Shown: positions 20,647 to 24,141 of the stretch, one piece after another
Layout of the letters: the number at the start of each line of letters is the position of its first letter
Position numbering within the stretch: the first letter of the stretch is position 1
DNA from: Flavobacteriales bacterium
GTDB taxonomy: Bacteria; Bacteroidota; Bacteroidia; JACJYZ01
DNA length: 42,271 nucleotides
Assembly (NCBI GenBank): GCA_020435415.1
Contig: JAGQZQ010000019.1
Location: forward strand, 1 to 42,271
Direction: 5' to 3'
Translations under genes and position numbers: made by a program
The notes under the pieces: model-generated
The model's database searches: none
Told to the model about the DNA's origin: nothing
The model's input: only the letters and a program-made list of their open reading frames with translations

Positions 20647-21984
20647 CTACAGAAGTTCGTTGGCCAGATTGGCAAGTTCTGAACGTTCGCCTTTTTCCAG
20701 GGTGATATGGGCGAACAGCTTATTGCCTTTCAGGCGGTCGATCAGATAAGACAGACCGTTACTCTGCTCATCAAGGTATGGTGTATCAATTTGAAACACA
20801 TCACCGGTGAAAATGATCTTGGTGTTTTCTCCGGCCCGTGTGATGATTGTTTTAACCTCATGAGGAGTCAGGTTCTGTGACTCGTCTACAATGAAAATTG
20901 AATCACTGATGCTTCGTCCGCGGATGTATGCCAGGGGTGCGATGACGATCTTTTCTTCCTTTTGCATCTGATCGATCATCTTGCTGCGTTTCTCATTCTC
21001 CCCGAACTGATTCTTGATAAACTTCAGGTTATCCCAGAGTGGCTCCATGTACGGATTGATCTTGTCATTGACATCACCGGGAAGATAACCCAGGTCCTTG
21101 TTGCTTAGGGGGACAATGGGACGCGCCAGGATGATCTGATTGTACAAACTCTTTTGTTCCAGACACCCAGCCAACGCAAGCAGCGTTTTACCCGTGCCGG
21201 CTACCCCCTGAATGGTCACCACCTTGATATCCGGATTCATGATGGCATGCATGGCGAATGTTTGCTCGGCATTTCTGGGTTTAATGCCATAGGTATATTG
21301 CTTCTCAACCTTTTTAATGCTGTTGTCGAAAGGATTGAAGTAAGCGAGCGAAGAAGTCTTTCCGTTCTTCAGGATAAAGAAGTGATTATTGATCTTAAAA
21401 TCCCCGAGTATATCGGTATCGGCAAGCTCACCATCTTTATAAAGTTTCATGATGGTATCCGTGGGAATATCTTCAATGCATACCCTTCCGGTGTAGAGAT
21501 TCTTGATATCCTGAATCTTGCCGGTCTCATAATCTTCCGCGATCAGGTTGAGGGCTTTTGCCTTCAGTCGCAGATTAATGTCTTTGGTCACAAGGACAAC
21601 ACGGGTGGTTTTTTCTTCTTCTGCCAGGGTAAGTGCCGCGTTCAGTATTTTGTGGTCTGGTTTTTTCTGATCGAAAACCCGGTTAGCATCCACGGAAGGG
21701 CCGGATTCGTTCATGACGATCTTTACGCGTCCCTTTTCTTTGCCATCAATGGGTATCCATTCCTGCAGGGAATAGTTGCCGGAAATCCGGTCGATGATGC
21801 GGATAAATTCACGGGCTTCATAGTTCTTGGGGCTATTGCCTTTCTTAAAATTATCCAACTCTTCCAATACCGTGATGGGGATCGCTATATCGTGTTCATC
21901 AAAATGAAAGATGGCATTGTGATCGTGAAGAATGACAGAGGTATCGAGAACATAAATCTTTTTAGTCTTTTTACGGGCAGTCAT
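20647..21984 (-). CDS. PIN-PhoH protein (PhoH2-type RNase/RNA helicase)
   Basis: This 445-residue cytoplasmic protein joins an N-terminal PIN nuclease domain (KIYVLDTSVILHDHNAI, residues 9-25, with the first catalytic Asp) to a PhoH ATPase. The ATPase has Walker A GVAGTGKT at 260-267 and Walker B IFIVDESQN at 363-371. The family unwinds and cleaves RNA in an ATP-dependent way. The frame stays open to 22260, but the extension has no family similarity that I recognise. The ATG at 21984 gives the standard start, and a -7 box lies at 22006-22013. It is monocistronic, with only 29 bases between its stop and the open frame of the upstream-facing neighbour at 20617. Confidence 0.92.
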   Translation of the reverse strand: MTARKKTKKIYVLDTSVILHDHNAIFHFDEHDIAIPITVLEELDNFKKGNSPKNYEAREFIRIIDRISGNYSLQEWIPIDGKEKGRVKIVMNESGPSVDANRVFDQKKPDHKILNAALTLAEEEKTTRVVLVTKDINLRLKAKALNLIAEDYETGKIQDIKNLYTGRVCIEDIPTDTIMKLYKDGELADTDILGDFKINNHFFILKNGKTSSLAYFNPFDNSIKKVEKQYTYGIKPRNAEQTFAMHAIMNPDIKVVTIQGVAGTGKTLLALAGCLEQKSLYNQIILARPIVPLSNKDLGYLPGDVNDKINPYMEPLWDNLKFIKNQFGENEKRSKMIDQMQKEEKIVIAPLAYIRGRSISDSIFIVDESQNLTPHEVKTIITRAGENTKIIFTGDVFQIDTPYLDEQSNGLSYLIDRLKGNKLFAHITLEKGERSELANLANELL

Positions 21985-22013: not shown

Positions 22014-22250
22014 ACAGGTAATACGACTTAGAAGCTCCTTGGATACATAAAGAAATCAACGGCCTTGTCTTGATAAATTTCATCCCGAACGGATGTGTCT
22101 TGTTAATAACTCTGGTAGCAGCCTGTTCACAAACCCGGCTCAGGCCTTGGTAATTGATGAATGGTGTAAGTACATACACGTGTCCTGAGGATATTAACAA
22201 TTGTTTATATCTTATGTTGAAACCATGTGTGTAAAACCGGATCGGATTTC

Positions 22251-22281
22251 TTGCGATCATCTTGTTGCACTTCTATATTTG
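22251..22281 (+). promoter_or_regulatory. Promoter of an RNA or long leader upstream of the histidine kinase
   Basis: TTG (22251-22253), 20 bases and TATATTTG (22274-22281) form the same arrangement as the promoter at 29171-29201. A transcript would start near 22288, about 480 bases before the kinase start. Confidence 0.5.
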
Positions 22282-22287
22282 AAATAG

Positions 22288-22764
22288 CAAGTAACCGGTA
22301 TTCATCACCGAAGGTTTATTCCAAAGGTGGTTCTCCGGATCGGAAGTTGTTCTGTCATTGCTGAAAGGGCATGACTCCCGGGTCTGTCTGAAATCCCACT
22401 TTGTTGGGGCAAAAAGGATGAGAGGGCACCGGCGGTTGACGAAAGGATACTGTTGGTATTTCGTAACCTGTGGTTCGTTCTTTTTCCATGCATTTCTCTG
22501 AAAGGTATGTGAGAAGAATAACTAAAATGTCTGACCCTTGAGTAAAGGTTAACTTAAGTTGCCGGATCAAAAGGGTAAACTTTCCGAAGCCTCACGGCGA
22601 TGGAAGTTCATGTTGAAGGCAGTCCTCGGAATGCCTTTGATTGGAAGACGGGAGGGAGCGATGCCGCGGTAACGCTGGTATAGCTTCGGATATTGGTACC
22701 TGGCATTTCGGTTTACACTGAAATGTAAAACGGGAGCCTTTTCGCAAGAATCGGTTCCCGTTTT
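22288..22764 (+). ncRNA. Candidate long noncoding RNA or structured leader
   Basis: Together with the phoH upstream region, the stretch 21985-22767 (783 bases) contains no gene that I can support. On the plus strand a promoter precedes it, and its 3' part is rich in potential helices. These include AAGGCA/TGCCTT (22616-22637), CATTTCGGT-TTAC-ACTGAAATG (22704-22725), and a 12-base-pair stem, AAAACGGGAGCC with GGTTCCCGTTTT (22727-22764), capped by a GCAA loop. It does not match what I remember of RNase P RNA, tmRNA, SRP RNA or 6S RNA. The last hairpin ends 3 bases before the TTG start of the kinase gene, so it may terminate a separate RNA or control the kinase. Confidence 0.35.
22727..22764. 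terminator. Strong hairpin just before the histidine kinase start
   Basis: Twelve base pairs (one G-T) join 22727-22738 to 22753-22764. A short inner helix is capped by the GNRA loop GCAA. Four T close the plus-strand side, so termination would be weak to moderate; the hairpin may also mask the ribosome entry site of the next gene. Confidence 0.5.
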
Positions 22765-22767
22765 CAT

Positions 22768-24141
22768 TTGAAGAGATTGATCCGTATTGGTGCGGAGCTA
22801 CTCAAGGATCTTTTTACGAAATGCCATCCGGATGAGTCCGGCGGTGTGCTGGATAAAAGTGTTTCATCAAAGCAGGTAAGCATTTGGGGTACATTTGTGG
22901 GGAATGATGATAAATCCGTAACCTGGAAAGCAGTATCAAAACAAATTAAGAAGAGTCAAAACTGGGAAGGTACCTTGTGCATCAGGGGGAGCGGCGGGGA
23001 GAAGATATGGCTGTCTGCAGATATTCAACCGATACACGGGGATCACTTTTTGCTGCTTGGGTTTGATGTTTCCAACCGCGTGCGCGCGGAAAGACAATTA
23101 CGTCAGAAAGATCAGGAGTTGAATATAATCACAAAAGCAACTTCTCTCTTTTTTCTGAATATTTCACTGAATGGAAGAATTCAGTTTATAAATAAAACCT
23201 TAAAACATCTGGATGCCAAAGATGTGATTGGCAAAACAGTCTATGAATTTTTCCCCGCTAAGGAACATAAGGAGATCAAAGCGACGATAAAAAGGGTGTC
23301 TCAATCGGGCAGACCCTCCTATTTTGAGGCGGAGAGTATCGGAGAAGGCAATAATCCTGCATGGTATGGCACACATGTTTACCCAAATGGAATTGATGAC
23401 CATGGCAATAAGCAGATGCTGCTTATTGCCAAAGATATCACCCATAAGGTAGAGGTGGATAAGGAGCTTGAAAAGCAAGAACGAATGTCAAAGGAATATC
23501 AATCCCAATTCCTGAGCACCCAGATCAACCCCCACTTTATTTTCAATGCGATGAATGCCATTCAGGTTTATATTCTGGATAGGCAAACTGAACCTGCACT
23601 TGAATATGTTTCTGAGTTTTCCAGCCTGATCAGGAATGTTCTGGAGAATTCCAGCAAGCTGAAGATTACCATTGCAGAGGAGGTGGAGTTTCTGATCAAA
23701 TACCTTGAACTTGAGAAAAAAAGATTTGATAAACGATTTGAGTATAATGTCATCATAGAACCGGGTCTTGATATGGATGCAGCTGTGATTCCTCCCATGG
23801 TATTGCAACCGCATGTGGAGAATGCCGTTGTTCATGGTATCGGAAAGCTCAGGGGTAGAGACGACGGCTTGATCACCATTTCGTTTAACGGAGTCAAAGA
23901 CCGACTGATTTGTAAAATTCAGGACAATGGGGTAGGGAGGGAATATGCGCTTTCCTTTACCACCCTGAATCGTGGGAAGGCCCATCGCTCGATGGGTGAA
24001 AAGATCACCAAAACCAGACTTCGTTTATTGACCGAAACATCCGGCGCAAAGCACGACATCAAAGTTGTTGATCTGAAGGACGCCAATGGAAATGCGAAAG
24101 GAACTTCCGTTGAGCTGACATTTCCATTATTATCCATCTAA
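22768..24141 (+). CDS. PAS-domain sensor histidine kinase of the LytS/YesM (His_kinase) family
   Basis: The 457-residue product has no signal peptide or membrane segment, so it is a cytoplasmic sensor. A first PAS-like region (about 38-105) is followed by a PAS domain (about 112-228) and a short coiled linker (230-247). The phosphoacceptor His256 lies in the TQINPHFIFNAMNAI motif of the His_kinase family. The ATPase shows PPMVLQPHVENAVVHG and QDNGVG. Such kinases usually partner a LytTR response regulator, but none is in the window. TTG at 22768 is the first start after the stop at 22726, and TTG 22777 is an alternative. The start lies 3 bases after a strong hairpin. Confidence 0.85.
   Translation: MKRLIRIGAELLKDLFTKCHPDESGGVLDKSVSSKQVSIWGTFVGNDDKSVTWKAVSKQIKKSQNWEGTLCIRGSGGEKIWLSADIQPIHGDHFLLLGFDVSNRVRAERQLRQKDQELNIITKATSLFFLNISLNGRIQFINKTLKHLDAKDVIGKTVYEFFPAKEHKEIKATIKRVSQSGRPSYFEAESIGEGNNPAWYGTHVYPNGIDDHGNKQMLLIAKDITHKVEVDKELEKQERMSKEYQSQFLSTQINPHFIFNAMNAIQVYILDRQTEPALEYVSEFSSLIRNVLENSSKLKITIAEEVEFLIKYLELEKKRFDKRFEYNVIIEPGLDMDAAVIPPMVLQPHVENAVVHGIGKLRGRDDGLITISFNGVKDRLICKIQDNGVGREYALSFTTLNRGKAHRSMGEKITKTRLRLLTETSGAKHDIKVVDLKDANGNAKGTSVELTFPLLSI

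Follow-up and report, generated by a model that had tools for sequence, protein, structure and literature searches.

The window analysed here, a stretch of 42,271 nucleotides from a Flavobacteriales bacterium, contains an intergenic interval at 22260-22767, flanked by a minus-strand PIN-PhoH gene and a plus-strand kinase gene, for which the question arises whether it encodes an RNA in its own right or serves as the leader of a neighbouring gene. The original prediction had described a stretch without a supported gene that runs from a promoter to two hairpins, and had offered both readings: an unknown noncoding RNA or a regulatory leader of the LytS-type kinase. Its description of the signals is borne out, with a promoter at 22251-22281 and hairpins at 22704-22725 and 22727-22764, the second closed by a GCAA loop and accompanied by a T4 tract, which in the window is located inside the 3' arm of the terminator hairpin. 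On the plus strand the stretch carries no supported gene and no open reading frame longer than ~70 codons; short reading frames up to about that length are present.

A folded transcription unit in the window

The features of the locus are as follows.

20647-21984, minus strand: PIN-PhoH gene (Pfam PF13638 and PF02562), divergent from the RNA and outside it, a possible functional partner
22202-22237, plus strand: degenerate phased array of DnaA-box-like units TGTTTATAT, TGTTGAAAC and TGTGTGTAAAA, 5' of the core promoter, with unit positions as in relatives
22251-22281, plus strand: core promoter of the Bacteroidota TTG/TAnnTTTG type, assigned by sequence, with TTG at 22251 and TATATTTG at 22274-22281, spaced as in relatives
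22285-22764, plus strand: predicted long noncoding RNA, based on its fold z-score, on being the sole genome match of a covariance model from which the window was left out and on phoH-linked homologues
22288-22301, plus strand: closing helix P1, 5' strand (CAAGUA-A-CCGGUAU), pairing with 22690-22702, its conserved part covarying across 26 members
22690-22702, plus strand: closing helix P1, 3' strand (AUAUUGG-UACCUG), aligned to the family motif AACAGUAGCUUGG
22704-22725, plus strand: 3' hairpin 1 (CAUUUCGGU-UUAC-ACUGAAAUG), with a hairpin at the same place in 25 members examined
22727-22764, plus strand: 3' hairpin 2, the intrinsic terminator, with 12 bp, a 2x2 internal loop and a UUC-GCAA-GAA apex, showing compensatory changes
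22768-24141, plus strand: PAS/LytS-type histidine kinase gene (PF06580)

The start of the RNA is predicted at about 22285-22288, at the same distance from the promoter as in relatives, and its end coincides with the end of the terminator hairpin at 22764. As a single strand, the plus strand of 22285-22767 is predicted to fold with -176 kcal/mol, corresponding to z = -5.8 relative to dinucleotide shuffles, compared to z = -2.9 for the minus strand; the domain closed by P1, taken without the 3' hairpins, reaches z = -3.5. Generic scans of the window for promoters and terminators are by themselves not above chance; it is the fold together with the conservation in relatives that lifts the finding above it. 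On these sequence signals, 22285-22764 is confirmed as a self-contained, strongly folding transcription unit.

Relatives across the class Bacteroidia

We searched 395 genomes of the class Bacteroidia, covering 197 genera, all from orders other than that of the window. At the DNA level (BLASTN) the matches were limited to the two 3' hairpins, with five genomes of one family-level group (f23) standing out, to which a family-wide search added a sixth. At all f23 loci that were checked the match lies upstream of phoH and divergent from it, as in the window, and a locus found independently by way of phoH (L037) shows the same arrangement, its sequence over the region being the same as that of L009. 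The f23 sequences align with their promoters in register and give an RNA of 550-640 nt with the same ends. Three f23 genomes belonging to one genus share 90-93% identity in this RNA across 544 gap-free nt, whereas the flanks of the same trio reach only 55-63% downstream and 71-80% in the spacer on the phoH side. Given this contrast, purifying selection acts on exactly the RNA interval.

More distant relatives were sought with covariance models of the 3' end. The first of these, R1, contained the window sequence and picked up members from further families. The second, R2, was built from 16 members that comprise neither the window nor any f23 sequence, after removal of wrong-strand matches caused by the palindromic terminator; as its training sequences had first been found by R1, it is independent in its parameters, not in the discovery of members. 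In the 3.48-Mb genome of the window, R2 has its sole match at 22679-22766 on the plus strand (32.5 bits, E = 0.0012), a score that taken alone is modest within the 395-genome survey, and it scores the f23 members at 49-53 bits. Across the class it matches 54 of the 395 genomes and 28 of the 197 genera at E <= 0.01; below 1e-4, about 40 genomes are matched, from eleven families besides the window's own. Weak survey matches with E between 0.001 and 0.01, some of which are simple terminators (for example L143 and L153), were not counted as members, and we likewise claim no members outside the class, where R2 matches are weak. Usually one RNA is found per genome. Two copies occur in the assembly G045, at 36 kb and 91 kb of contig C75, and in G222, on contigs C16 and C418; in G222 both adjoin phoH and may be contamination.

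The helices at the two ends of the RNA covary. In the 16-member alignment, hairpin 1 shows compensatory changes at 10 of its 11 pairs and hairpin 2 at 7 of 10, so that double changes occur at 17 of 21 pairs; 85.6% of the positions are paired, compared to 40-60% when the strands are slid against each other, and all shuffles are beaten. The loop of hairpin 1 is nearly always YAYG (UACG, CACG or UAUG) in members outside f23, as if it were a site of protein binding or tertiary contact; other loops are found in f23 and in the window. The motif UUCGCAAGAA in the terminator is common to several groups and otherwise rare. A general terminator motif of Bacteroidota was considered here and rejected: within the window UUCGCAAGAA is present a single time, and of 80 phoH loci only one has it in a terminator. 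Domain V of a group II intron, suggested to the eye by GAGCC...GGUUC and the GNRA loop, was rejected by inspection on account of the 2x2 internal loop, the three upper pairs and the role as a terminator.

The 5' end is tied into the same structure by helix P1, in which a 5' CCAAGU pairs with a GCUUGG located 200-630 nt downstream. Among 26 members, 96.2% of cells in the P1 alignment are paired (8-46% in slid controls), four of the six pairs show compensatory changes, and 18 cells carry double changes, compared to 3.7 in shuffles; the compensatory variants include CCAAGU/GCUUGG, CCAAAU/GUUUGG, CUAAGU/GCUUAG and GCAGUU/AACUGC. Because P1 joins the 5' end to a site just before the 3' hairpins, the body of the RNA forms one closed domain. 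In the window, P1 contains an A-C and a G-G mismatch and forms four of the six conserved pairs, with the helix extended beyond them. A few bases before the 5' strand of P1, the window (22251-22288) and most members have a TTG/TAnnTTTG promoter of their own, laid out in the family as TTG-N~20-TAnnTTTG. Following P1, many members share the 5' consensus GUGAGRGAUAAAAGG, which is common rather than universal, as the window, with UAACCGGUAUUCAU in its place, f40 and one f14 lineage depart from it.

Taken together, these comparisons give good support to a large structured RNA family with members in some twelve family-level groups within Bacteroidia. We consider it very probable that the window RNA is a divergent member of this family, given the model match, the synteny, the promoter and P1. 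Its membership is founded on the 3' end, the promoter, the upstream array, P1 and synteny, its interior having no convincing alignment to those of other members. That the structured RNA at the window locus and the RNA family are both real we regard as nearly certain. The stretch that the original prediction singled out is hence conserved and covarying among relatives.

Neighbouring genes, upstream array and proposed role

The genes next to the RNA and their orientation change between groups and include, as judged from reading translations rather than from family searches, those for cytochrome oxidase subunits, dnaK, acyl-CoA ligase, oxidoreductases and others. Such variable neighbours exclude the RNA as the leader of one particular gene. 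The neighbour that recurs is phoH, which adjoins the RNA in four of the ten groups examined and in three arrangements: it is divergent in f1 and f23, downstream on the same strand in f40 (four of four loci) and upstream on the same strand in one f2 genome. It is not found beside the RNA in f4, f5, f10, f14, f46 and f47. Universal phoH synteny was rejected as well, since the RNA is present at only one (L037) of the 80 phoH loci taken from a genome scan. That phoH recurs in three different arrangements is indicative of a functional link; it is possible that the linkage was inherited with rearrangement, or that it reflects regulation of phoH.

Upstream of the promoter, the family carries TGTTNATAA-like units at about -47, -58, -70 and -82 from the -10 box, helically phased and present in ten family-level lineages. 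The 180-nt upstream regions contain 100 such units, compared to a mean of 20.9 and a maximum of 37 in shuffles, and in 7.15 Mb of strand sequence, a sample enriched in RNA loci of which some are present more than once, all 14 triple arrays lie directly upstream of a family RNA. The units of the window start at about -71, -58 and -47, positions that are used in nine other family-level lineages; compared to GTTNATAA, one unit has one mismatch and two have two mismatches. Low-affinity DnaA sites are spaced by about 11 bp. As the array units of some groups include the perfect DnaA box TGTGGATAA and the spacing of 11-12 bp resembles that of low-affinity DnaA arrays, DnaA or a DnaA-like factor is the first candidate for a regulator binding there. 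At E. coli oriC, low-affinity sites bind ATP-DnaA and guide the formation of its filament (PMC6742236). We treat DnaA as a candidate only, because the array in the window is degenerate and DnaA (PF00308) was not found in the window's draft genome, which is rated 98.8% complete and in which assembly gaps could explain the missing match.

The DnaA-box-like units also brought up the possibility of a replication origin (oriC), which was discarded on the basis of GC skew, both for the window and for the genome G230: no skew switch is found in the window, and the RNA locus of G230 is ~1.9 Mb away from the skew origin, the ribosomal L2 gene having served to verify strand polarity. Among f40 genomes, the RNA is located at the plus-to-minus switch of the skew (the replication terminus) or close to it, within ~40 kb of it in G380 (contig C2, 867 kb), at ~60-90 kb in G202 (contig C1, 933 kb) and at ~150 kb in G230 (contig C1, 2.69 Mb). 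The f14 contigs show no skew switch near the RNA locus.

In our best reading, the window harbours an independent noncoding RNA gene, belonging to a Bacteroidia family that is absent from Rfam 15. Its product would be a stable RNA that acts in trans, probably as the core of a ribonucleoprotein. PIN-PhoH, combining a PIN nuclease with a PhoH ATPase, would be the best candidate for a partner, either as a processing enzyme, a remodeller or a bound client, because its gene stands beside the RNA in four family-level groups and in three arrangements. Transcription would be set by a protein that binds the upstream array cooperatively, for which DnaA or a DnaA-like factor is the first candidate. We lean towards this reading as a whole, with limited confidence, and its components differ in strength: a role in trans is likely, a partnership with PhoH is tentative and would have to be called somewhat less than an even prospect, and DnaA as the regulator is more doubtful again. 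A bolder version, in which an undescribed class of large structured RNA with a DnaA-type array promoter would be timed by replication or the cell cycle and form a ribonucleoprotein with the PIN-PhoH helicase-nuclease, appears unlikely, at perhaps one chance in a few.

A precedent for PhoH acting on RNA exists in mycobacteria, where PhoH2 binds and unwinds RNA, has RNase activity and has been reported as part of a toxin-antitoxin locus (PMC4826407). The window's neighbour has the same PIN plus PhoH architecture; in contrast, the partner in mycobacteria is a small antitoxin protein, PhoAT, and not a long RNA (PMC4826407). PIN-PhoH proteins are widespread and their function is poorly known. Bacteria rarely have large noncoding RNAs that are widely conserved, and the few known examples have so far defied functional explanation. 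The present family offers two handles that most orphan RNAs lack, namely a recurrent RNA-enzyme neighbour and a conserved array of the DnaA-box type. An orphan RNA and an orphan protein thereby become partners that can be tested directly in culturable relatives.

The adjacency of phoH in four family-level groups could also mean that the chief role of the RNA is to tune phoH expression, acting in cis or through base pairing and possibly in a feedback loop with PhoH; in f40 it would be a terminator-ended leader, in f1 and f23 a divergent transcript. In agreement with this, the phoH gene of f40 follows the RNA and its terminator on the same strand at a distance of 62-456 nt. We nonetheless judge such a role improbable, as three relative orientations occur, and as f4, f5, f10, f14, f46 and f47 lack an adjacent phoH despite having the same promoter, P1 and 3' hairpins. 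Slightly less probable still is that the function resides in the DNA array, as a locus of DnaA titration or replication control, datA-like in concept, with the RNA as its timed output or co-factor. The phased DnaA-box-like units, some of them perfect TGTGGATAA boxes, in ten lineages and the closeness of the f40 loci to the skew terminus would suit this explanation, but the RNA itself is conserved and covarying, the G230 locus is not at the skew origin, neither the f14 loci nor the window have a skew switch nearby, and the window's draft genome yielded no DnaA.

It is very unlikely that the RNA is instead a message encoding one or several small conserved proteins: the short reading frames mentioned above would allow for it, but no long or shared frame is found in the members checked, the ends of the RNA covary as helices, and lengths differ by hundreds of bases between groups. 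The other half of the original prediction, a regulatory leader or attenuator of the LytS-type kinase, does not hold up and is given hardly any weight, since, although the kinase reading frame starts on the same strand just 4 nt past the terminator hairpin, the RNA has its own terminator, the kinase adjoins it in no relative examined and the neighbours vary.

Relation to known RNAs and variation of the interior

At the gathering cut-off, the covariance models of Rfam 15 give no match to the RNA in the window or in the sampled member loci, so that the unknown noncoding RNA of the original prediction has turned out to be a widespread, covarying family absent from that library. That one of the housekeeping RNAs (tmRNA, RNase P RNA, 6S or SRP RNA) has diverged so strongly here that the Rfam models miss it is just as implausible as the kinase leader: tmRNA was indeed not found above the cut-off elsewhere in the window's draft genome (98.8% complete, with assembly gaps possible), but ARAGORN finds no tRNA-like domain in the window and tmRNA was rejected, RNase P RNA sits on another contig, the member loci have no Rfam match to the RNA, one of these loci has SRP RNA at another place, and the variation in length is too great for these families.

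Large noncoding RNAs without an assigned function are already known as a broad type, exemplified by OLE, ROOL and GOLLD (PMC12286853). Like these, the new family is a large structured noncoding RNA with a role that is at best partly known and an interior that is modular in some groups. It differs in having no sequence or structure match to them in Rfam scans and in its hosts and neighbours, being chromosomal in Bacteroidia. The motifs 6S-flavo (RF01685), Flavo-1 (RF01705) and Pedo-repair (RF01715) are likewise RNAs of Bacteroidetes that were recognised by comparative genomics (PMC2864571), but their Rfam models, which are part of the scanned library, fail to match. The Soda Lake RNA, or smtA motif, resembles the family in being a large (>350 nt) covarying RNA candidate with unknown function, but is confined to Thioalkalivibrio, and the main text of its description names neither Bacteroid- nor phoH (PMC11109978). 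A phage or plasmid origin was considered and rejected, as blastn gave no match in the collections searched; two exact 5' motifs of the RNA were not found in IMG/VR, where a shorter motif gave 12 matches, about the chance expectation. No description of the RNA was found in the literature covered, and as subscription papers and preprints lie outside this coverage, a published description is possible. Judged by sequence and structure models, the family matches no known RNA family.

The interior of the RNA differs strongly between groups; no common internal fold was derived, and the interiors of many relatives fold no better than shuffles. Lengths range from ~0.26 to 0.7 kb, with totals of ~260-300 nt in f10 and parts of f14 and f46 and of 335-705 nt in most others, and possibly reach 1.8 kb once. 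This last case is the locus L252 on the minus strand of an f47 genome (G046, contig C1, ~25.9-27.7 kb), where array, promoter and 5' motif lie 1.8 kb upstream of a matching 3' end with no open reading frame of more than 90 codons between the 5' motif and the 3' end; it is possibly a giant member of the family. At the f14 loci L239 and L241, the interior contains modules like UUUGAGACGGGYNACCGCAGAAGUGC about 100-110 nt apart, with similar copies recognisable by eye in L140, suggesting growth via duplication of a structural unit.
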